IMG/VR virus record: IMGVR_UViG_3300025674_000352
Span: 1-25,455 of that record
Direction: 5' to 3' (one strand)
Length of the DNA: 25,455 bases
Source of the DNA: a virus
Position numbers and translations under genes: made by a program. Within the stretch, counting starts at the first letter, position 1; the number at the start of each line of letters is the position of its first letter. Below the pieces are notes generated by a model that ran no database searches, was not told where the DNA came from, and was given only the letters and a program-made list of their open reading frames with translations. Positions 3,779-22,350 of this stretch are shown here, piece by piece.

Positions 3779-6250
3779 ATGCGTATTCCTACTTATCGTG
3801 TAAGCTCTACCCCAACAGGCGAAGCGCCAGGACGTAGCTTTCGTGCGCGCATGAGCGCAACGCCGTTCATCCAACAGGCGCAAGCTGAGGGTGGCATTGT
3901 CAAAGAGTTTGCGCGGCAAGCTGGTGAATTTGCAACCACACGATACAAAGCTGCCAGGGAAACGCAAATCAACGAAAAGATTATTGCTGGCGAAGAAGCC
4001 TTGCGCGAAGAAGCGCGGCGATTGTCACAGATCGAAACTGGCAAATTGCGCGATGTTTTCAACGAAGGCGGCAAAGAGGAGGAGGGGCTTTGGTCTCAAT
4101 CCTCTACATTAACGCGTGAAAAATTGCTCGAAGATGTTAAAGATCGTGAAGCTCGTAGGATCTTAACTGATCGATTTAACCAAATGGAGCTTACTCATAG
4201 GTTCCGTTTGCGTGGCACAATCGATCAGAAGATCGACCAGGCTAACCAGGCTGCGCGTACTGCGCGCGCTCAAGGCACAATGACAACAGCGGGCATGGCG
4301 AATGACGTTAAGGAGTTCGACCTGGCGCTAAACAACTTTGGGGTTGATAGCGTTCGCCTGGGATCTCTTGGCCTGGGCAACCCAGATGCGCTGAAGAAAC
4401 AAGAGCTGGCAGTGGTCGTTGGCGCTGTAGACATGCAAGTGTCGCGGTATATCAATGGATCTGAAACACCGAGCAAAGCCCTGGAAGCATTGCGCCAGGC
4501 ATTGCGTGACGGGGATGCGTCCCTAGCTGGCGATGGTCAGATGGCATTCTACGCTCTCAGCAAACTAGATCTAAATTCGCAAGCTGCGATTTTGAAAAAG
4601 TATGGCGGGGCAGCTGACTACATCGATGCGCCAACAGCTGAAGAACAAAAGCAAGCCCGCATTGCTGGGGAATATGGCAAACAAGCGGGCGCCCTGGTCA
4701 CTGACTACACAAGTCGGATCCAGGAAGGTCAGACACTGCCAACAGGCTCGATCGAGCAACTTATGGAAATTGCAGAAATGGCTTATCCTTCTATGGGGGG
4801 TGTTGAGCAAGCCGAGCTAAAAGAGGGCATTGAGGATCTGCAATACATCCAGGGATTAGCGACAGCGGTAAAAGGTGTTGCGAACGTCAAGGGTGTTGAC
4901 GATATGATAATGATGCTGGAGCAAGGCGACCAGTTTGGTGGCCCAGGTATCCAGCCAAGAGAGCAGCTTGGGTTAGAGTTCTTGCGTGGCTTCAAGGCCA
5001 ACATGGAAAAGCAACTTGAAACTGATCCAATAGGTTTTGCGTCCACCACAGGTTCGGTCAAAATTGCTCCTATCGACCTGTCTCCCCAAGCTGTACAATC
5101 TGGACAAACGGGTGTGGCGCAGCGAATACAAAGCGCCGTGGCGGTTCGAGGCCACTACGAGCTAACAGGCCCGATGAAATTGCTAACGCCCGCTGAGGTA
5201 GCATCTTATGCGCCTTATCTAAATCGCGGATCTGCCGTTGAGCGGATGCAAGCAATCAACACAATTACGGAACAGTTTGGCGAATTTGCCCCAGCTGTAC
5301 TGCAACAACTTGCGCCAGATGCGCCAGTGGCTATGCACGTTGCTGGCCTTATGCGTGACGGGATCGGCCCAGAAGCTGAGATCATTATGAACGGGATCGA
5401 GGAGATTGCGCAAAATGGCAATCCGATCGAAGGCGCAGATATGCAAAGCGCTGAGGCAGACATGTATGAGATCCTGGGCGCAGCTTATGAGTTACTACCT
5501 GGTAGCCTGAACGCCGAGCTGAAAAAGAATATCAAGGATACTGCCCTGGCATACTATGCCGAAGTGTTATCTCGTAAGGTAGACAAGTCTTATGACAGCG
5601 ATCTTTGGGAAAAAGCGGTCAACGTAGCAACAGGATATAACCCCAAAACTGGCAAGGGTGGCGTCCAGGATGTACGTGGTACGCCTACATTGTTGCCGCC
5701 GAATAGATCCCCAGATGAAATAGAAACTGCCCTGGAAACGATCACGATTGATAACTTTGCAGAGATTGCAACGTCCTCAGGTACGATCGACCAGGAAACG
5801 TTTGATGATATTACATCAGACGATAACTATAACTTACAAGTGTTGGGTCGGCGCAATGGCAAGATTGTCTATGGAGTTGTGTACGGCAACTATGGTGAAA
5901 GCGGCTACGCAATCATTACGGATCCAGATGGCAACGATATTAACTTTACAGCTGAGGAACTAATCAAAGCCTCTCGCAGAAAAGCCCAGCCTCGTGTAGA
6001 AAAAAGTGAACCTGTCGTACAGGAAGCGCCGAAAGACCAGGCGTTTGATATACGCAACTATGACAAATCATCACCAGAGGATCGCAACGAAGCACGAATT
6101 GCAATCATGAGGATAATCGAAGATAATTTTGATGTTGATACCGTTACGATAACTGACGTTCGTAAGTATCTGCGAAAAGAAAAGATCCCTCATAGCAATC
6201 AAATGATTGAAACGGCTTTGAACTTAGCGAAGGGAAACGCAAGTGAGTAG
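3779..6250 (+). CDS. Large internal virion protein (T7 gp15-like)
   Basis: This 823-aa protein is soluble, acidic and mostly helical. Its N-terminal charged coiled-coil region covers about residues 35-140 (many E, R, K and A). It lies between gp14-like and gp16-like genes, as gp15 (747 aa) does in T7, where gp15 is ejected and forms a hub of the trans-envelope channel. Pro-rich spacers near residues 650 and 735 separate a small beta segment (VLGRRNGKIVYGVVYGNYG) and a final helical domain. No enzymatic motif was seen. Only six bases (TAATAA) separate it from the previous stop, and no clear Shine-Dalgarno sequence precedes it, so coupling is likely. The GTG start of the next gene overlaps its last codons. 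Confidence 0.78.
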   Translation: MRIPTYRVSSTPTGEAPGRSFRARMSATPFIQQAQAEGGIVKEFARQAGEFATTRYKAARETQINEKIIAGEEALREEARRLSQIETGKLRDVFNEGGKEEEGLWSQSSTLTREKLLEDVKDREARRILTDRFNQMELTHRFRLRGTIDQKIDQANQAARTARAQGTMTTAGMANDVKEFDLALNNFGVDSVRLGSLGLGNPDALKKQELAVVVGAVDMQVSRYINGSETPSKALEALRQALRDGDASLAGDGQMAFYALSKLDLNSQAAILKKYGGAADYIDAPTAEEQKQARIAGEYGKQAGALVTDYTSRIQEGQTLPTGSIEQLMEIAEMAYPSMGGVEQAELKEGIEDLQYIQGLATAVKGVANVKGVDDMIMMLEQGDQFGGPGIQPREQLGLEFLRGFKANMEKQLETDPIGFASTTGSVKIAPIDLSPQAVQSGQTGVAQRIQSAVAVRGHYELTGPMKLLTPAEVASYAPYLNRGSAVERMQAINTITEQFGEFAPAVLQQLAPDAPVAMHVAGLMRDGIGPEAEIIMNGIEEIAQNGNPIEGADMQSAEADMYEILGAAYELLPGSLNAELKKNIKDTALAYYAEVLSRKVDKSYDSDLWEKAVNVATGYNPKTGKGGVQDVRGTPTLLPPNRSPDEIETALETITIDNFAEIATSSGTIDQETFDDITSDDNYNLQVLGRRNGKIVYGVVYGNYGESGYAIITDPDGNDINFTAEELIKASRRKAQPRVEKSEPVVQEAPKDQAFDIRNYDKSSPEDRNEARIAIMRIIEDNFDVDTVTITDVRKYLRKEKIPHSNQMIETALNLAKGNASE

Positions 6251-9200
6251 TTACTTACCAGACCAGGTAAATCCGCTTTCGTTTGCAACTACGCCGCGCC
6301 GTAGTAAACCAACAGGCGGTTTCGTAGAAAACCTGTCTCAGTCTTTCGATGCTAACTTAATGCAAAGCGGATCCTCTGAGGAGCGCTTCATCAAAGAGGC
6401 TTGGGATCCAATCGTTGAGGAAATCGAAACATTAACGGGTAAATCTTTTAGAAACCCTGGAGCGTACATACGTCCTAATGTGTTTGAGATCCTAAGTGGT
6501 GAAGCCGCCAGGTTCTATGGCCCAGCGCGATACAGCTACGAAACAAACGATATTGAAACATTTGTGCGCGACAATCGTGACCAGCTGCCTGAGGAGCTGG
6601 TTGTTTCTGTCCTGGATCAAGATCGAGATAAGTCCTGGCGTGAGGCTGCGCGCGAGAAGTTTCACCAGGAACAAGGCGAACTTGCCGAGCTAACAGAGCG
6701 CTCTCCTGGGATTGGCCCTGGCACTGCGCGTGTCTTGGGTATGCTTGGGGCGGGTGCCGAGGATCCAATTAACCAGGCATTCATGGTTATCCCTACTGCG
6801 CGCCTGGGCAAAAACTTCCTGGGCCTGATCGCGGGCGAGGCGTTTACAAACGCTACAGTAGAAATGATCCAGCAACCAGACGTTAAAGATTGGTATGATA
6901 GCCTGGGGATAGATTATACCTGGGAAGATTTTGTTGCGAATGTTGGATCAGCTGCCGTAATTGGTGGTGCATTCCCTGTCGGTATTAAGATCGGGACAGA
7001 AACTGTAAGGCTAACAGCTGACCAGGTACGCCGTGGCGCTCAGGTTATAAGCAATGCAGCGGGTCGCAAATCAGCTGGGCAAGAGGCAGCGGAGCTACTC
7101 GATGAGGCCGCACAATCGATTACAGACAGCAATCCTCTAGGCAACAAAGCAGTAAACCAGGTCGAACATCAATCTAGGTTAGAAGAAGCCACGGTCGCAT
7201 TGAACGATGGTGAATTGCCTAAGATTTCGGAAGCCCCTCGATCTGAGGTGCAGCTCCCAGAAAACATAAATGAAGCAACAAACTTGCGCGGCGTGGTCGA
7301 TGAGTTTGATCCGAATGAGATTGGCGTAGATGCTAAGACGTTCCAGTTTAAAGAAGGCGGCGACATATACGGTGTTACTGACCGCCTGGAAGGTGTGACG
7401 CAGTGGGATCCTATCAAAGCGGGCATGGTAACGATCTATGAATACGCTGATGGGAAATTGTTTATCGCAGATGGACACCAGCGCTTAGGTCTAGCCAAGC
7501 GTATCTTAGACCAGGATCCTAGCCAGGATGTACGCATGGTCGGGTATCGTTTGCGCGAGGTTGATGGCATTACGCCTGATGATGCAATGGTGATTGCAGC
7601 GTTAAAAAATATTGCGGAAGGCACAGGCACTGCGATCGATGCAGCTAAGATCTTGCGCGTAGCGCCTGATCGGATCTCTGAGCTACCGCCTAAATCTGCA
7701 TTTGTTCGCCAGGCAAATGACCTAGCACGTTTGGGCGATGATGCCTGGGGCATGGTAAAGAACGAAATTGTCGCACCTAATCATGCGGCAGTCGTTGGTC
7801 GTCTGATCGATGATCCTAGTATGCAAAAGGCAGCGCTCGATGTTTTAGCAAAGACTGAACCCGCAAATGAGTTCCAGGCAGAGGCTATTGTTCGCCAGGT
7901 GCGCGAAACAGAAATGGTTACTGAGACCCAGGAGAACTTGTTTGGTGAAGAAGTTTTAACGCAAAGCTTGTTTACTGAGCGCGCAAAAGTTCTTGATCGT
8001 GCGCAAAAGCAGCTGCGCAAAGACAAAAACGCATTCCAAAACCTAATTACTAACGCGGCTCGATTAGAGGGCGAAGGTAATAAACTTGCGCAAAACGCTA
8101 ATGAAAGAAGGGCTAACGACGATGGCAAAGCGATCTCGCTCCTCCAAAGCCAAGCAAACCGTAAGGGAACCCTCTCAGATGCCCTTACCGCTGCGGCAAG
8201 GCAAGCAAAAGAAACAGGCAACTACAACGCCGCTACAAGAGGCTTTCTCGAAGATGTCAGACGAGCAATTTCAGACGGCGAGTTTGACCGCGCAGAAACT
8301 AGCGATGTTGGACGCACTTTCGATGCTCCAGAAGAAATCCCGACTATACGAACAGATGCAGAGGAAATCGAGCTAAACCAGTTCGATGATATGTTTGGCC
8401 CTGGCATGGAACGCCAGACGAGCGCTCTCGATGCAGGGTTGCGCCAGGATTTGACAGATCCACAAATACAGCGCCAGGAGTTGAAACGCCTGGTCGATGA
8501 TGGCGCGCCAGAAGAACAGATCATTAATCATCCAGCGATCGTTGATGCGATAGCCCGCATGGAGGAGATCCCGCTAACCAATGAGCGCCCTGGTTATCCT
8601 AAAGATGGCGATGATGTAGCGGCTATTGAATGGTTTGATAACAGACGTTATATTGTAGATGGAAGCAATGAAGCGTCATTCGATGATGCATTCCGCTACC
8701 TGGTAAAAGGCGCAAGAGAGCTGGGCTGGGTAGACGAAGGCTTAGATTTCCCTACAGGAGCAACCCGCCAAGAAAAGAAAGCGGTAATTATTCTAGGCCC
8801 ACCAGCTGCGGGTAAGAGTACGATTGCCAATCCGATCGCGCGCAAGATGGGTGCATCGATCGTTGATGCGGATGAAGCAAAGAAGGTTTTGCCAGAATAC
8901 CAGGGCGGCATTGGTGCAAATGCGGTACATGAAGAAAGCTCATTCATGTCAGATCTTTTGTTCAAAGGTTTGATGGAAGAAGGTGATAACCTGGTTATTC
9001 CTAAGGTTGGCGGCAAGGTTGAAAGTATTGAGCGCACAATCTCATTGCTTAAATCAAAGGGATATGACGTTGAATTAGTAGATATGAAGGTCGGCGCCGA
9101 GGCAGCACTGCAACGCATGATCGGTCGCTTTATCAACACGGGTAGATTAATTAACCCAGAATATGTTAAAAAAGTGGGCGATAATCCCGCCATTACTTTT

Positions 9201-9593
9201 GACACACTAAGAGAAAAGGGGGTAGCAGATGGCTACTACAGGATCGACAACGAAGGCGGGCGCGACGATTTCAAAGACGTCCCAATCGAAACAGGAACCC
9301 TCCTCGATGGGGTCGAGCTTCGACTACGACGAAATGGAGTTGAGAGCGGCCCAGAAGTCAGACGGGGCGATCGGGAAGCTACTGTTGGAGCGGGGGCTGA
9401 AAGCCCTGAAAGCGTAGCAATCCCACAGATCCGCGAAAATTTCTTAGATGAGGAGTTCCCACTAGAAGTGTTGGGCGAAGTGGATGAAGTTACGCAAGAG
9501 CCAGTTTTAAGAAAAGTCACAGCGCGGCAGCTCCTGGATGAAATAGACCAGGACGATGCGATGATTGATGCTATTTCGAGGTGTCCACTATGA
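6243..9593 (+). CDS. Ejected polyvalent protein with ParB-like and zeta-toxin-like kinase domains
   Basis: This 1116-aa protein starts at GTG 6243, with AAGGG at 6230-6234. It stands at the start of the T7 gene 16 position. Residues 1-300 are helical with hydrophobic Gly/Ala stretches near 180-255. Residues about 350-470 look ParB-like: a beta segment (MVTIYEYADGKLFIADGHQR), the ParB-type motif ADGHQRLGLAKR (409-420) and a helix beginning AALKNIAEG, the usual 'EN-Q' position. After a charged linker, residues about 845-1000 look like a zeta-toxin/UNAG kinase: Walker A GPPAAGKST (852-860), D-A-D-E (875-878), HEESS (896-900) and QRMIGRFINTGR (957-968). The mix fits polyvalent proteins that phages inject with DNA. 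Kinase substrate and DNA target are unknown. I saw no transglycosylase motif as in T7 gp16. Confidence 0.82.
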   Translation: MSSYLPDQVNPLSFATTPRRSKPTGGFVENLSQSFDANLMQSGSSEERFIKEAWDPIVEEIETLTGKSFRNPGAYIRPNVFEILSGEAARFYGPARYSYETNDIETFVRDNRDQLPEELVVSVLDQDRDKSWREAAREKFHQEQGELAELTERSPGIGPGTARVLGMLGAGAEDPINQAFMVIPTARLGKNFLGLIAGEAFTNATVEMIQQPDVKDWYDSLGIDYTWEDFVANVGSAAVIGGAFPVGIKIGTETVRLTADQVRRGAQVISNAAGRKSAGQEAAELLDEAAQSITDSNPLGNKAVNQVEHQSRLEEATVALNDGELPKISEAPRSEVQLPENINEATNLRGVVDEFDPNEIGVDAKTFQFKEGGDIYGVTDRLEGVTQWDPIKAGMVTIYEYADGKLFIADGHQRLGLAKRILDQDPSQDVRMVGYRLREVDGITPDDAMVIAALKNIAEGTGTAIDAAKILRVAPDRISELPPKSAFVRQANDLARLGDDAWGMVKNEIVAPNHAAVVGRLIDDPSMQKAALDVLAKTEPANEFQAEAIVRQVRETEMVTETQENLFGEEVLTQSLFTERAKVLDRAQKQLRKDKNAFQNLITNAARLEGEGNKLAQNANERRANDDGKAISLLQSQANRKGTLSDALTAAARQAKETGNYNAATRGFLEDVRRAISDGEFDRAETSDVGRTFDAPEEIPTIRTDAEEIELNQFDDMFGPGMERQTSALDAGLRQDLTDPQIQRQELKRLVDDGAPEEQIINHPAIVDAIARMEEIPLTNERPGYPKDGDDVAAIEWFDNRRYIVDGSNEASFDDAFRYLVKGARELGWVDEGLDFPTGATRQEKKAVIILGPPAAGKSTIANPIARKMGASIVDADEAKKVLPEYQGGIGANAVHEESSFMSDLLFKGLMEEGDNLVIPKVGGKVESIERTISLLKSKGYDVELVDMKVGAEAALQRMIGRFINTGRLINPEYVKKVGDNPAITFDTLREKGVADGYYRIDNEGGRDDFKDVPIETGTLLDGVELRLRRNGVESGPEVRRGDREATVGAGAESPESVAIPQIRENFLDEEFPLEVLGEVDEVTQEPVLRKVTARQLLDEIDQDDAMIDAISRCPL
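8122..8376 (+). CDS. Nested out-of-frame ORF inside the ParB/zeta gene (candidate)
   Basis: An 84-aa ORF lies in another frame of the 1116-aa gene. Its ATG at 8122 is preceded by AGAAGGG (8106-8112) at 9-nt spacing. The product is basic at the start (MAKRSRSSKAKQ) and then has a clean amphipathic helical part (PLQEAFSKMSDEQFQTASLT and on). It overlaps residues about 626-711 of the host protein, a charged linker between the two recognisable domains. Over this stretch the host frame switches to Leu CTC and Arg CGA/AGA codons that it uses little elsewhere, as expected when a second frame is constrained. The function is unknown. Chance remains possible. Confidence 0.4.
   Translation: MAKRSRSSKAKQTVREPSQMPLPLRQGKQKKQATTTPLQEAFSKMSDEQFQTASLTAQKLAMLDALSMLQKKSRLYEQMQRKSS
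9229..9417 (+). CDS. Second nested out-of-frame ORF just after the zeta-like domain (candidate)
   Basis: This 62-aa ORF is in the same frame as the nested ORF at 8122. ATG 9229 follows an excellent ribosome site, AAGGGGG at 9216-9222 with six bases between. The product has a Ser/Thr/Lys-rich start and a helical end (DYDEMELRAAQKSDGAIGKL, then a short Leu-rich helix). It overlaps host-protein residues about 996-1058, immediately after the kinase-like domain. There the host frame has a run of Arg codons CGA, AGA and CGG that is unusual for this genome. No family was recognised. A role as a small regulator of the kinase domain is speculation. Confidence 0.4.
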   Translation: MATTGSTTKAGATISKTSQSKQEPSSMGSSFDYDEMELRAAQKSDGAIGKLLLERGLKALKA

Positions 9594-14536: not shown

Positions 14537-15712
14537 ATGGCTAAAGGTAAAGGCGGCTTCATAGGCCAAGACGGGCTTAATGCGCCAGATGCCCCAACTG
14601 GGGTCAGCGGAACGGCTGGTGATGAAAAGGTTGATGTTAATTTCACTGCGCCAAGCGATGTTGGTGGGTCGGCAATTAATGGTTATAGAGTTCAAGATAG
14701 CACGGGAGCGCACGGTGCGTCTGGCTCATCTTCGCCTATAACTATTACTGGTCTGACAAACGACACTGCATATTATTTTAACGTCTGGGCTATTAACGCT
14801 TTCGGTTATTCTGCTCCTAGCAGCTCAACAGGTAGTGTTACACCCGCGTTTGTTCCTACAGCAGTATTTGCGGGCGGCAATACAAACGTAATAGATTATG
14901 TGTCAATTAACACACTAGGTAACGCAACAGATTGGGGCGACTTACCCGCAAATGTCCAGAACACCGCTGGTGCATCTAATGATACAAGAGGTCTTGTTCA
15001 AAGAAATTATAGTGGGTCTGTTGATTACATAACTTTTTCTACTCAGGGGAATGCAATTTCGTTTGGTAATTTAAGCAGTAGTAGAGATAGTGATGGAGCA
15101 TTAGCAAACTCAACTCGCGCAGTGTTTGGCGGCGGTGAAGGTGCTGCATCATTTAGTGATATTATGGATTACTTTACTATTGCCACCACAGGAAGCGCGA
15201 CAGACTTTGGTGACTTAACGGTTGGTCGTAGAGACCCTTCTGGCTGTGGGTCATCAACTCGTGGTTGTTTCAATATGGGTCAATATGCTTCTGGCGTTTG
15301 GACAAATACGATTGACTACATTACGATTGGCTCAACAGGTAATGCTACTGACTTTGGGGACGCAACACAAAGCCTTGGGAACTCAGGCGCATGTTCTTCT
15401 TCTACAAGGGGGATTATTTTTGGTGGAAACAACCCATACTCTAAAAATGTCATCCAATACTTTACCATTGCGTCAACTGGTAATGCCTCAGACTTTGGTG
15501 ATTTAACCGAACAAGCAAGCGGTTGTGCGGGTGCTTCGTCAAATACCAGAGGTCTCAGAGGTGGCGGTGAAAATGTAGGCACCACATCATGGGGCGTGAC
15601 TATTGACTACATTACTATCGCTTCTACTGGAAATGCCGCAGACTTTGGTGATTTAACTGTCAATAGGGTGGAAGTTGTCGGCCTATCCAACGCTCATGGA
15701 GGACTTTCATAA
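14537..15712 (+). CDS. FN3 plus six-repeat (propeller-like) tail adhesin, paralogue 1
   Basis: This 391-aa protein has two parts. Residues about 16-103 form a fibronectin type III domain (DAPTGVSGTAGDEKVDVNFT, NGYRVQDS, TITGLTNDTAYYFNVWAINA). From about 107 to the end there are six copies of a roughly 47-residue unit with the core IDYITIASTGNATDFGDL and a linker SSSTRGxFGGG. Six units with a closing LSNAHGG suggest a six-bladed beta-propeller of Kelch type. The position after the fibre suggests a receptor or glycan-binding appendage. TTAGGAG at 14523-14529 precedes ATG 14537. The stop and next start overlap as TAATG. Confidence 0.8.
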   Translation: MAKGKGGFIGQDGLNAPDAPTGVSGTAGDEKVDVNFTAPSDVGGSAINGYRVQDSTGAHGASGSSSPITITGLTNDTAYYFNVWAINAFGYSAPSSSTGSVTPAFVPTAVFAGGNTNVIDYVSINTLGNATDWGDLPANVQNTAGASNDTRGLVQRNYSGSVDYITFSTQGNAISFGNLSSSRDSDGALANSTRAVFGGGEGAASFSDIMDYFTIATTGSATDFGDLTVGRRDPSGCGSSTRGCFNMGQYASGVWTNTIDYITIGSTGNATDFGDATQSLGNSGACSSSTRGIIFGGNNPYSKNVIQYFTIASTGNASDFGDLTEQASGCAGASSNTRGLRGGGENVGTTSWGVTIDYITIASTGNAADFGDLTVNRVEVVGLSNAHGGLS

Positions 15713-17700
15713 TGCCAAATTATCAAGGTGTATGGTCGCTCTCGACGCAGTTTCAGAACAGAGATGGATGGCCTTTGCCGCCTTTGGCTGGTGGAGGAGC
15801 AGTCGGTGTATTCTTCGGCGGGAACGAGGCAAGCGGAAATACAGATCGCATACAATATATAGAGATTGCGTCAACAGGTAATTCAGAAGACTTTGGAAAT
15901 TTAGTGACAAATAATTACGGGGGCTTTGCTTGTGGCTCAACTGTCAGAGGCTTAAATGCGGGAGGCTACAACAATGGTGTTGAAGTGAATATGATACAAT
16001 TTGTCACCATTCACACAAAAGGAGATGCTTCCGATTTTGGAGATTTAACAGCAGAAAAAAATCTTGCAAACGGTTGTGGGTCAAGCACCAGAGGAATTTT
16101 TGCAGCGGGGGCTAATTCTAGTGGGGCTTTAAATGTTATAGAATATGTAACATTTGCATCAGCGGGTGATGCTATAGATTTTGGCGATTTGACAGTTTCA
16201 CAATCAAACAGGGCTGCGTGTTCATCTCCAACGAGAGGTATTGTTGGCGGTGGCTATTATAGTGCCATTATCAATGTCATTGATTATTTTACCATAGCAA
16301 GCGCAGGAAACGCCTTAGACTTTGGTGATTTAACAGCGTCAAAGGGTATTTTTGCTGCATGTTCCTCTGAAACTAGGGGTCTTTTTGGCGGCGGTGATGA
16401 TGGCAGCGTTCAAACGAATGTGATTGAGTATATAACCATTGCGTCCACAGGAAACGGCACAGATTTTGGCGATTTAAGCACAAATTATATAAAGAATATG
16501 GCTTCATGTTCATCATCCGTTAGAGGAGTTTGGGCGGGAGGTCAGCAAGGAAATACTAGGATAGATAATATCCAATATGTAACAATAGCCTCGCTAGGCA
16601 ACACTTCTGACTTTGGAGATTTGTTAGCTGCAAATAGAATTTTCCAAGGCACATCTTCAGACCACGGAGGACTTCAGTAATGCCTAAACGCTATCTAGGA
16701 AACATTATTACCGATACTCCGACAGAGCCAACAGAGAACTACGAGGACGCGGCAGCAAGCGGCGTGTGGTCACTTGCGGAAGCCAATGCATACACAGCGG
16801 CGGGGCTGTGGCCTACGGCGGGGAATGCTGCGCCAAGGGCTTTGTTTATTGGAGGTCAGAACAGCGGTGGTAGCACAAATATTATAGATTACATTCAAAT
16901 AGCATCTACTGGTAATGCCACGGACTTTGGTGACTTAGATGATACAAGGGAAAACTTCCGTGGTGCATTTGGATCATCTACAAGAGGTGTTATTGGCGGC
17001 GGGGCAACTGCTCCCGATGATTATATTCAGTATGTAACTATAGCAACGGCTGGCAACACTACAACCTTTGGCGATCTTTTAACAGGAACAACGCAGGGCG
17101 CAGGGGCTTCATCCGAAACACGAGGGTTATTTGGCGGTGGTAATAATTCTAATGTAATTGAATATGTAACTATAGCCTCAATAGGAAATTCCGTAGACTT
17201 TGGTGACTTAACACAGACAAGGCGAACTTTAGCGGCATGTGCAAGCACCACAAGGGCTGTTTTTGCTGGAGGCTCCGAATCAGACCCGCCCTTTACCCAA
17301 TATAATATCATTGATTATGTAACTATTGCCACGACAGGTAACGCTACAGATTTTGGCGATATGACGTTAGCAAGAAGCGGTTTAGATGGTTGTTCTTCAT
17401 CAACTAGAGGCGTGTTTTCAGGGGGGTATGATGGCTCAAGCGCGGTCAATACGATTGACTATATAACGATTGCGTCAACGGGCAACGCTACTGACTTTGG
17501 CGATTTATTAGCCGCAATTTCTCGTAGCGCGGGAGCCTCAAGCCATGTAAGAGGTGTATTCGGCGGTGGTAATTACAGTCCATTCTTAAACACAATTCAA
17601 TACATAACGATTGCATCTATTGGAAATGCAACTGATTTTGGCGACTTAACTGCGGCTCGTGCTGAACTTGCAGCACTATCTAACGCACACGGCGGCTTGG
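14860..17700 (+). repeat. Eighteen blade-like protein repeats in three tandem genes
   Basis: Three genes carry six units each of about 46-48 residues, with consensus T-R-G-x-F-G-G-G, then I-(D/E/Q)-Y-(I/V)-T-I-A-S-T-G-N-A-T-D-F-G-D-L. Much of the consensus (for example GGTAATGC-ACTGACTTTGG-GA) is conserved at DNA level, so the block is a substrate for homologous exchange within and between genes. Confidence 0.85.
15712..16680 (+). CDS. Six-repeat (propeller-like) tail adhesin, paralogue 2
   Basis: This 322-aa protein lacks FN3. A short leader (MPNYQGVWSLSTQFQNRDGW) is followed by the first inner strand GAVGVFFGG and six units with cores such as IQYIEIASTGNSEDFGNL and IEYITIASTGNGTDFGDL. It ends in DHGGLQ, matching NAHGG of the other two copies. 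The leader motif GVWSL-x(n)-WP recurs in the third paralogue and is probably an attachment element. TAATG junctions on both sides indicate translational coupling in a three-gene tandem array. Identity among units and paralogues suggests duplication and exchange of blades. The adhesin role is inference. Confidence 0.78.
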   Translation: MPNYQGVWSLSTQFQNRDGWPLPPLAGGGAVGVFFGGNEASGNTDRIQYIEIASTGNSEDFGNLVTNNYGGFACGSTVRGLNAGGYNNGVEVNMIQFVTIHTKGDASDFGDLTAEKNLANGCGSSTRGIFAAGANSSGALNVIEYVTFASAGDAIDFGDLTVSQSNRAACSSPTRGIVGGGYYSAIINVIDYFTIASAGNALDFGDLTASKGIFAACSSETRGLFGGGDDGSVQTNVIEYITIASTGNGTDFGDLSTNYIKNMASCSSSVRGVWAGGQQGNTRIDNIQYVTIASLGNTSDFGDLLAANRIFQGTSSDHGGLQ

Positions 17701-17708
17701 CAGCATAG
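16680..17708 (+). CDS. Six-repeat (propeller-like) tail adhesin, paralogue 3
   Basis: This 342-aa protein has a leader of about 55 residues (MPKRYLGNIITDTPTEPTEN, then ASGVWSLAEANAYTAAGLWP). The six units follow (IDYIQIASTGNATDFGDL first, IQYITIASIGNATDFGDL last) and the closing LSNAHGGLAA. Repeat register, Gly-rich turns and the conserved TR(G/A)VF(G/A)GG strand are the same as in the two upstream copies. The gene starts at a TAATG overlap with paralogue 2. As the last of the array it has the most regular repeats, so it may be the most recently homogenised. It could act as a receptor-binding or glycan-binding virion protein. No enzyme signature was seen. Confidence 0.78.
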   Translation: MPKRYLGNIITDTPTEPTENYEDAAASGVWSLAEANAYTAAGLWPTAGNAAPRALFIGGQNSGGSTNIIDYIQIASTGNATDFGDLDDTRENFRGAFGSSTRGVIGGGATAPDDYIQYVTIATAGNTTTFGDLLTGTTQGAGASSETRGLFGGGNNSNVIEYVTIASIGNSVDFGDLTQTRRTLAACASTTRAVFAGGSESDPPFTQYNIIDYVTIATTGNATDFGDMTLARSGLDGCSSSTRGVFSGGYDGSSAVNTIDYITIASTGNATDFGDLLAAISRSAGASSHVRGVFGGGNYSPFLNTIQYITIASIGNATDFGDLTAARAELAALSNAHGGLAA

Positions 17709-20163: not shown

Positions 20164-20516
20164 TTGGTCAGATATTATCGAGCGTGGGTGGCCTGGCTAC
20201 CGCGTATCTCGAAAGCAAGACAGCGGTGAAGTTGACCGAGGCTGAAATTAAAAAGAAACAGCTGACAGGTGAAATTGATTGGGATCTTGAAGCAATACGC
20301 GCTACGCAAAATTCATGGCGCGACGAGTGGATTACGCTACTGTTTTCTATACCCATGATCCTGGCATTCTGTGGGGATTGGGGTCGTAAGATAGTAGACG
20401 ATGGCTTTGCTGCACTCGCCAACATGCCCGATTGGTATCAAGTGAGTTTGGGAGCCGTGGTAGCAAGTTCGCTAGGAATAAGGGCTGTGTCTAAATTCTT
20501 TGGAGGAAAGAAATGA
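20160..20516 (+). CDS. 3-TM holin (GTA-release type)
   Basis: This 118-aa protein resembles the 'holin of 3TMs, for gene-transfer release' family described from alphaproteobacteria. It has an N-terminal hydrophobic stretch (MIGQILSSVGGLATAYL), a central charged helix (LTEAEIKKKQLTGEIDWDLE) leading to the family-like RATQNSWRDEWITLLFSIPM, a membrane helix with ILAFCGDW, and a last helix (SLGAVVASSLGIRAVSKFF) before a basic tail. Holins open the inner membrane so that the endolysin can reach the wall. It overlaps both neighbours with ATGA junctions (2820-style coupling), placing it in a compact lysis cassette. Confidence 0.85.
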   Translation: MIGQILSSVGGLATAYLESKTAVKLTEAEIKKKQLTGEIDWDLEAIRATQNSWRDEWITLLFSIPMILAFCGDWGRKIVDDGFAALANMPDWYQVSLGAVVASSLGIRAVSKFFGGKK

Positions 20517-20980
20517 GTGAGTTCAAACTAAGCAAGACAAGCCTGGGGCGCCTGGAAGGTGTAGACGAGGAGCTGGTTGCAATCGTCAAGCGCGCAATAA
20601 CAATTACGCCTATCGATTTTGGGATCCCCTGGATGGGTGGGCTGCGCACAATCGAGGATCAGCGTGAGCTGGTCAAAAAGAAAGTATCGTTCACAATGAA
20701 ATCCAAGCACATCGAGGGCAATGCTTTTGATGTTGTTGCGTATGTTGGCGCGCGTCCGAGCTGGGAGCTTGCATTGTATGATGATCTTGCCGACACAATA
20801 ATTAAATCGGCAAAAGAGATTGGAGTTGAACAGCTGAAATGGGGCGGCGCCTGGCACATCGATAACATCCTGGAATGGAAGGGTACGGCGCTAGAAGCTT
20901 ATGACGACATGGTGAAAGTACGCACTGCCCAGGGCCGCAGAGTTTTCACTGACATGCCACATTTCCAAAAAGGAGTTTGA
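20513..20980 (+). CDS. Endolysin, M15/VanY-type peptidoglycan peptidase
   Basis: This 155-aa protein carries the zinc-site pattern of M15 L-Ala-D-Glu or D-Ala carboxypeptidase-like endolysins. SKHIEGNAFDVVAYVG at residues 64-79 supplies His66 and Asp73 (S-x-H-x-x-G-x-A-x-D). LKWGGAW at 108-114 is the usual core, and DMPHFQ near the C-terminus supplies His150. RTIEDQRELVKKKVSFT matches the entry segment of the fold. It would cut peptide stems of the host wall. No signal peptide is visible, so it should need the holin. It follows the holin with an ATGA overlap and ends 3 nt before the next start. Confidence 0.92.
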   Translation: MSEFKLSKTSLGRLEGVDEELVAIVKRAITITPIDFGIPWMGGLRTIEDQRELVKKKVSFTMKSKHIEGNAFDVVAYVGARPSWELALYDDLADTIIKSAKEIGVEQLKWGGAWHIDNILEWKGTALEAYDDMVKVRTAQGRRVFTDMPHFQKGV

Positions 20981-20983
20981 TTG

Positions 20984-21157
20984 ATGGCTAAGAAACCTGG
21001 ATTGTACGCAAATATTCACGCTAAACGTAAACGGATCGCAGCTGGATCTGGCGAGAAGATGAGAAAGCCTGGTGAAGCTGGGGCGCCGAGCGCCAAGGAC
21101 TTTGCCGACAGCGCAAAGACTGCGAAGAAACCTAAGCGCAAATCGATGATGGGTTAA
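20984..21157 (+). CDS. Short basic phage protein ending in KRKSMMG
   Basis: A 57-aa, strongly basic protein (MAKKPGLYANIHAKRKRIAA, then GSGEKMRKPGEAGAP) of a type I associate with many marine phages. AGGAG at 20971-20975 gives a good ribosome site eight bases upstream. It ends K-R-K-S-M-M-G, a tail echoed by the two other short basic genes nearby. The function is unknown. Nucleic-acid or virion association is plausible from charge. Confidence 0.75.
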   Translation: MAKKPGLYANIHAKRKRIAAGSGEKMRKPGEAGAPSAKDFADSAKTAKKPKRKSMMG

Positions 21158-21159
21158 TC

Positions 21160-21471
21160 ATGGCAAGGTCGGCAGCATGGCAGCGCAAAGAAGGTAAGAA
21201 CCCAAGCGGTGGTCTAAATGAAAAGGGACGTAAATCTTACGAGCGCGAGAACCCTGGATCTAATCTGAAGGCGCCAGTGAAGAAGGGCAACAACCCACGC
21301 CGTGCATCTTTCTTGGCGCGCATGGGAAACATGAAGGGGCCAGAGCGTGATGAGAAAGGTAGACCGACCAGGTTACTTAAATCATTGCAAGCCTGGGGCG
21401 CTTCATCGAAAGCTGATGCAAAGAAAAAAGCGAAACGGATCTCAATGATGAACAAGAAGAAGACAGCCTGA
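21160..21471 (+). CDS. Basic phage protein of a widespread unknown family
   Basis: This 103-aa protein reads AAWQRKEGKNPSGGLNEKGR, then SYERENPGSNLKAPV, and later RRASFLARMGNMKGPERDEK. This is a highly recognisable small family in marine and enteric phages that carries a domain of unknown function (I believe DUF6321, from memory). It has many Arg, Lys, Gly and Pro residues and short conserved blocks, suggesting extended binding to nucleic acid or another protein. It ends KRISMMNKKKTA, sharing the S-M-M motif with its small basic neighbours. Two bases separate it from the previous stop, and ATGA overlaps the next start. No strong ribosome site precedes it. Confidence 0.75.
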   Translation: MARSAAWQRKEGKNPSGGLNEKGRKSYERENPGSNLKAPVKKGNNPRRASFLARMGNMKGPERDEKGRPTRLLKSLQAWGASSKADAKKKAKRISMMNKKKTA

Positions 21472-22190
21472 TGGGATACTTTCACGAAGATGTAGACAGT
21501 CCACATGCGCTGTTAGAGATTGCATCAGAGCGCATGCCAGAGGTTGTGCCTGTTAATATCTTTGGGTTTAGTCGAACTGTTGGCACAGCTTTTCAAACCA
21601 TTTGGAATGATGGGGGGCAGTACGTTCACCCTAGTGCAGCCGTTCAAATGAGCTGCGTGTCAACTAGCGCATCCGACACAATGACAATCGTTATCTCTGG
21701 TCTTGATGCAAACTATGAAACCATTGCAGAGATTGTGCAGATAAATGGAACAACTCCAGTTACAACCACAAACTCTTTCTATCGGATTAATAGCGCGACA
21801 ATTCTATCTGGATCAAATGTTGGCGACATCACAGTTAGCGAAGGTGGCACGGTATACGCAAACATTGAAGCGACTTTGGGAACAACGCAAGCTTGCATCT
21901 ACACTGTTCCAGCCAATCATTCTTTATACATCTTTCGCATATCCCTCACGTCTGGAACGGTAAACTCTAACAAGTATATCACTTATAGAAACCGAATAGA
22001 TAGCAGCACTGGTCGCGTTCTGCGTGTGGCAGAGGCGACATTTCAGCTAAACATGCAGACGTTTGATCGCCAGATACCATTCCGTATTGCGCCGAAATCT
22101 GACTTTCAGTTTGAGGCAAAGTCATCTTCTGGTACAAATGAGCTGTCGATATTTGTTGAAGCATTATTAATGAAGGACAAATATGCCTAA
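21471..22190 (+). CDS. Virion structural protein, beta-rich
   Basis: This 239-aa protein is rich in beta strands. Its segments ISGLDANYETIAEIVQINGT and VTTTNSFYRINSATILSG belong to a pattern I know from virion proteins of marine myo- and podoviruses. The C-terminal half (QACIYTVPANHSLYIFRISL and on, ending ELSIFVEALLMKD) looks like a jelly-roll or immunoglobulin-like domain. A decoration or tail-adhesin part is likely. It is oddly placed after the lysis genes rather than with the tail block. Its codon use and absence of CCWGG sites resemble the adhesin cassette more than its direct neighbours, so it may have moved with it. The start overlaps the previous stop. Confidence 0.75.
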   Translation: MGYFHEDVDSPHALLEIASERMPEVVPVNIFGFSRTVGTAFQTIWNDGGQYVHPSAAVQMSCVSTSASDTMTIVISGLDANYETIAEIVQINGTTPVTTTNSFYRINSATILSGSNVGDITVSEGGTVYANIEATLGTTQACIYTVPANHSLYIFRISLTSGTVNSNKYITYRNRIDSSTGRVLRVAEATFQLNMQTFDRQIPFRIAPKSDFQFEAKSSSGTNELSIFVEALLMKDKYA

Positions 22191-22350
22191 AGAAATGCAT
22201 CGAGCCTTAGAGGCCAGGGCAAGAAAGATGGGTTTAACAGGTGAGCGTAAGGATGCTTACGTTTACGGAACAATGAGGAAAGCAGAAATGCCTGGTAAAA
22301 AAACAAAGCCTAAAAAGAAATCCATGATGGACAAAGGCTACGGAAAGTAA
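22183..22350 (+). CDS. Short basic phage protein ending in KKKSMMDKGYGK
   Basis: A 55-aa basic protein (MPKEMHRALEARARKMGLTG, then ERKDAYVYGTMRKAEMPG). AAGGA at 22173-22177 is five bases before ATG, and the gene overlaps the previous stop by eight bases. The helical start and the phrase 'RKDAYVYGTM' are common in small phage proteins of unknown role. It is the last rightward gene. Its TAA (22348-22350) directly touches the stop of the leftward operon. Confidence 0.75.
   Translation: MPKEMHRALEARARKMGLTGERKDAYVYGTMRKAEMPGKKTKPKKKSMMDKGYGK

Follow-up and report, generated by a model that had tools for sequence, protein, structure and literature searches.

Three small proteins of one phage, here named A, B and C, differ in the rest of their sequences and very probably carry the same C-terminal tag, [KR]-x-S-M-M. 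The tag is common to about ten orphan small basic proteins, which turns their study into one testable question, namely what the tag binds. Our preferred reading is that the tag is a docking tag that would recruit these proteins to head assembly, and we give it a probability of about 0.45.

The window and its phage

The window, i.e. the whole stretch of DNA that was analysed, is a virus record of 25,455 bases. It begins 3' of the terL, portal and capsid genes, and its near relative G004 matched cultured isolates in terL, portal and capsid. The two tail tubular proteins of the window (A and B) matched those of isolates with E values of 4e-50 and 5e-236, respectively. Together with its acetyltransferase, they matched HTVC010P, HTVC034P and Greip. 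Judged from these matches, the window phage is probably an HTVC010P-like podovirus and a relative of the proposed Ubiqueviridae. The family Ubiqueviridae was proposed for HTVC010P-type pelagiphages, and phages of this type rank with the most abundant ocean viruses (PMC10504331).

Two other regions of the window were noted. At 14537-17708, 3' of the tail fibre gene, three consecutive genes (391, 322 and 342 aa) share one repeated unit (about TIASTGNATDFGDLT) and are apparent tandem paralogues. At 6243-9593, a 1116-aa protein is encoded. Read by eye only, it resembles a large virion protein and seems to contain a stretch like ParB as well as a P-loop like that of zeta toxins (GPPAAGKST).

The tagged genes and their neighbours are as follows.

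20513..20980, + strand: M15 peptidase endolysin, assigned by family matches, directly 5' of the tagged genes
20984..21157, + strand: protein A, 57 aa, basic, ends KRKSMMG; phrog_16028
21134..21154, + strand: tag on A, K-R-K-S-M-M-G, read from the sequence and tested against chance
21160..21471, + strand: protein B, 103 aa, ends KRISMMNKKKTA; DUF6321 (PF19846) / phrog_4689
21433..21468, + strand: tag on B, K-R-I-S-M-M-N-K-K-K-T-A, in place of the ISARN of many homologues
21471..22190, + strand: untagged 239-aa protein between B and C; phrog_8198, found in most of the clade
22183..22350, + strand: protein C, 55 aa, ends KKKSMMDKGYGK, last gene of the operon; no family
22288..22347, + strand: tag module of C, MPGKKTKPKKKSMMDKGYGK; in relative L108/L200, a lone ORF after B has these 20 residues

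The earlier note had described three ORFs ending in [KR]-x-S-M-M at 20984-21157, 21160-21471 and 22183-22350, and both coordinates and endings were exact. It was also right that the proteins are otherwise different. A belongs to phrog_16028 and B to DUF6321 and phrog_4689, and C had no match in the family searches that placed A and B. The DUF6321 score of B was 91 bits against a gathering cut-off of 28.5 (Pfam PF19846). The three genes had further been called adjacent; this holds for A and B, but the gene of the 239-aa protein separates B from C. A PDB profile search with the 239-aa protein gave weak, chance-level matches only. The window cassette adjoins lysis genes, not head genes.

Two phage protein families (phrog_11180 and phrog_28131) are matched by both A-like and B-like domains, each in a different part. 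At the level of these family matches, this suggests a functional link of A and B.

The motif is enriched at C-termini

When whole proteins were shuffled, [KR]xSMM arose in the last 13 residues with p = 3.9e-4 for A, 2.1e-4 for B and 6.0e-4 for C. When only the last 15 residues were shuffled, the values were 0.008, 0.005 and 0.004, respectively.

A family test was then performed on the window, nine relatives and six shorter contigs, whose 439 proteins fell into 135 families. Genes for this test were predicted with a simple codon-scored script, and a family was taken as tagged when at least half of its members had the strict motif in their last 14 residues. Eleven of the 135 families were tagged against 0.22 expected, the number of tagged families being approximate because X1 was split in two groups and tail-only homology was excluded by the coverage rule, and the sample being biased because the nine relatives were fetched by a C-tail pattern and five of the six shorter contigs by a KKKSMM pattern. 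None of 2000 shuffles reached 11 (maximum 3). The tag was still present in families outside the fetch patterns. Besides X1 and X2, these were B, D and the proteins of 114 and 106 aa, and for the nine relatives also A. As position controls, the N-terminus and the penultimate 14 residues were searched, and the motif was found in one family each. The motif was thus more frequent at C-termini than composition predicts, the opposite of what the earlier note had named as a reason to abandon its idea.

In near-complete genomes, a K-S-M-M DNA pattern gave about 50 matches in 21 records versus 2 for a reversed control; these records were picked for the motif, so the counts indicate where K-S-M-M lies and not its frequency. 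The matches lay almost only within the small-gene cassette.

Distribution of the tag in families and relatives

The generalised tag reads [KR]-x-[ST]-[LMI]-[LMI], often followed by N/G-x-x-Y/I-G, and in uncultured relatives the motif was 1-9 residues from the C-terminus. About ten non-homologous families had it: A, B, C, D, F, G/H, I, X1, X2 and the 114-aa and 106-aa proteins. The tail of D was YLPNGKEYKGPTHKM...KKPKSMMDKK. Protein F is a 127-aa repeat protein and protein I is a DUF5824 protein. G and H are related to each other, with the tails KKKSMMGAA and KKKSMMNNYGRNA, and the 114-aa and 106-aa proteins end in RRSLIGMFE and KKSLMNRK, respectively.

Among A, B and C homologues in IMG/VR, the tag occurred only within one set of uncultured phages. 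Most A and B homologues of other phages were without it and had plain Lys-rich or other tails. Searches of the phage collection and of genome contigs gave no match to protein C. No cultured phage with an SMM tail was found; among the small proteins read from CRP-207, CRP-902, CRP-345, CRP-13, CRP-5, Hodr, HTVC010P, HTVC034P and Greip, those of A, B and D type were without an SMM tail. Within DUF6321, the [KR]xSMM ending was not family-wide, and most homologues have ISARNKK-like or RxWxC-like ends. For B, the ending may have arisen by modification of a helix end, ISARN to ISMMN, and not by addition of a tag. A literature search found no paper on DUF6321, and the HTVC010P papers searched held no description of a shared tag of this kind.

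The tag states of A and B agreed in 81 of 82 distinct pairs (34 both tagged, 47 neither), a concordance that relatedness inflates. The single discordant pair had ITMM in place of ISMM. In a tree of B cores, there were three changes of each tag state and two to three independent concordant pairs, too few to test. In five relatives (L089, L295, L206, L428 and L088), the next gene 3' of C encodes a protein whose N-terminal part contains K-R-K-S-L-M-N-x-[YF] and, after it, a charged stretch with a heptad-like pattern. The motif is therefore not strictly C-terminal.

Some tagged proteins are encoded beside the portal gene

In the genomes of the tagged set, the terL-portal interval contains X1, which has about 160-240 aa (e.g. 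RRRRSLMGGGLIR), and X2, which has 62-75 aa (e.g. KKKRSLMNNYGMM), with portal and capsid assigned by Pfam. The X2 gene is directly 5' of the portal gene, and its product has the tag as a conserved tail. Among 27 distinct X2 tails, 25 matched [ST][LM][LMI], and the remaining two had S-I-M. In L263, the cassette itself sits between terL/X1 and portal, and X2 and four more small proteins have [ST]MM tails. Four of these five tags have TMM in place of SMM, which suggests a coordinated change in this single genome. In the isolates HTVC010P, HTVC034P and Greip, neighbouring small terL-portal proteins end in KTLLGS, KRSLLGQ, KKSLLGR, KKTLLG and KPTLLG, and others have KSSLTFGE-like ends. Several of these small isolate proteins matched phrog_831, and a phrog_831-type protein had no match in the PDB.

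X2, X1 and the small isolate proteins have their genes next to the portal gene, and on this ground the partner of the tag would belong to the head-assembly machinery, as portal, scaffold or capsid lumen. All tagged proteins would bind this one partner, and small lysine-rich, probably nucleic-acid-binding proteins would thus be drawn into the procapsid. The mode would resemble that of the T4 capsid targeting sequence (CTS) or the encapsulin cargo-loading peptide (CLP). One head-assembly partner is favoured since the tag is the X2 tail next to the portal and the L263 cassette lies between terL and portal.

These same two observations weigh against a different reading, in which the shared docking tag has its partner outside the head, be it a host protein, a phage regulator or a nucleic acid, and the tagged proteins would work inside the cell at a late stage of infection and stay unpackaged. 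The position of the window cassette after the lysis genes would suit such a partner, as would the small size and lysine richness of the tagged proteins and the many phages that have A and B domains without the tag. However, besides the X2 tail and the L263 cassette, the likeness of the tag to the tails of the isolates' terL-portal proteins speaks for the head, and we consider an outside partner doubtful.

The tag also occurs as a stand-alone ORF

Some relatives lack the N-terminal domain of C and keep its tail as a lone predicted ORF of 17-21 codons, which begins at the position of the C start codon and overlaps the stop of the 239-aa gene. In L428, L204 and L217, the C start codon leads straight into MxKKKGKKKSMMGGGYGK. 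In L108, the tag ORF is directly after B. In L202 and others, an untagged C-like protein overlaps a predicted MYGKKRKPKKSMMNGGYGKGS ORF in another frame.

Details of some of these loci were also recorded. In L202 (9232-9339) and L098 (5068-5175), the C-like gene and the tag ORF overlap at a run of seven A (GGAAAAAAAC), where slippage or a frameshift would fuse the C-like domain to the tag, and a Shine-Dalgarno-like GAGG is 5' of the tag ORF's ATG. A 27-aa ORF of L237 (at 2162, - strand) ends KPKPKKTIMSGYGKGK and is another possible tag-only ORF.

Lone tags of 17-21 aa are implausible as substrates of a protease, which counts against reading the motif as a site of processing. In such a reading, a protease of the prohead or the host would cut near K-x-S-[LM]-[LM] and trim a few end residues, as T4 gp21 does on propeptides. 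X1 often has two related stretches (STIATSPKGLL-like and RRRRSLMGG), and the related phage Skadi has a reported prohead protease (PMC10504331), both in line with such cutting. However, just 1-9 residues would be lost, and the distance to the end is variable. We regard processing as improbable.

A fuller form of the head-assembly reading, which we put forward only tentatively, would have the tag as a C-terminal cargo-loading peptide that fills the head with a varying set of small basic proteins. The lone peptide could compete for or cap docking sites, and the tag would have spread to new cargo families in the clade.

Selection acts on the protein

Over the whole set, the tag serine used all four TCN codons, several of them in both A and B tails. 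Thr replaced Ser, and Leu or Ile replaced Met (SLM, SIM, SLIG). These free serine codons and substitutes indicate selection on the protein and not on DNA. In A tails, 16 codon combinations encoded the same residues and K-S-M-M was kept. For the lone tag ORFs, pN/pS was 0.11, an underestimate since they were found by a protein-like pattern.

These data bear on whether the tails have a function. Lys/Met-rich tails of one lineage could have arisen by recombination or drift, and the generally Lys-rich tails of marine phage basic proteins and the largely clade-specific trait agree with this. Yet composition shuffles fail to yield the tag, and K-S-M-M stays constant while the codons of A tails vary synonymously. 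In the window, synonymous sites distinguish the tail of A from that of C, and fresh copying of tail DNA between the two genes was therefore rejected. A tag with no function is quite improbable in our view.

A DNA or RNA signal, with ATGATG near gene ends serving translation re-initiation, packaging or regulation, was rejected on the free serine codons and the Leu, Ile and Thr substitutes and is very improbable, since C, last in the operon, is still tagged, although the next start codon is within a few bases of the A and B ends.

The earlier note had proposed a common signal. This proposal is well supported by the many unrelated families, the specific position, the selection at the protein level, the concordance between genes of one genome and the lone ORF. 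The roles that the note suggested for the signal (capsid packaging, binding of one partner or nucleic-acid contact) are candidates.

Comparison with known systems

The phrog_831-type terL-portal proteins of HTVC010P-type pelagiphages are similar in that adjacent small proteins end in K-x-[ST]-L-L-G at the same place as X1 and X2. They differ in having L-L-G where the tag has M-M. In the papers searched, these ends were not described as a shared tag.

In T4, the first 10 residues of internal protein IPIII suffice for head incorporation, and terminal peptides of about 10 residues are present on several small internal proteins (IPI-IPIII), a feature that the tag resembles (PMC9026906). The T4 CTS is N-terminal and is removed by gp21, whereas our tag is C-terminal. 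The two also differ in sequence and in phage type. An N-terminal position like that of T4 was not seen for the tag, with one family in the N-terminal control. Should the tag serve to load cargo, it would be the C-terminal equivalent of the T4 CTS, and it could be a handle to fill small phage heads with foreign proteins in laboratory systems.

The encapsulin CLP is a short, usually C-terminal peptide that loads unrelated cargo into an HK97-fold shell (PMC7355545). The tag is likewise a short, mostly C-terminal peptide on several unrelated proteins (11 of 135 families). Encapsulins differ in being cellular compartments. By this analogy, the T4 CTS and the encapsulin CLP would be functional models of the tag and not its relatives.
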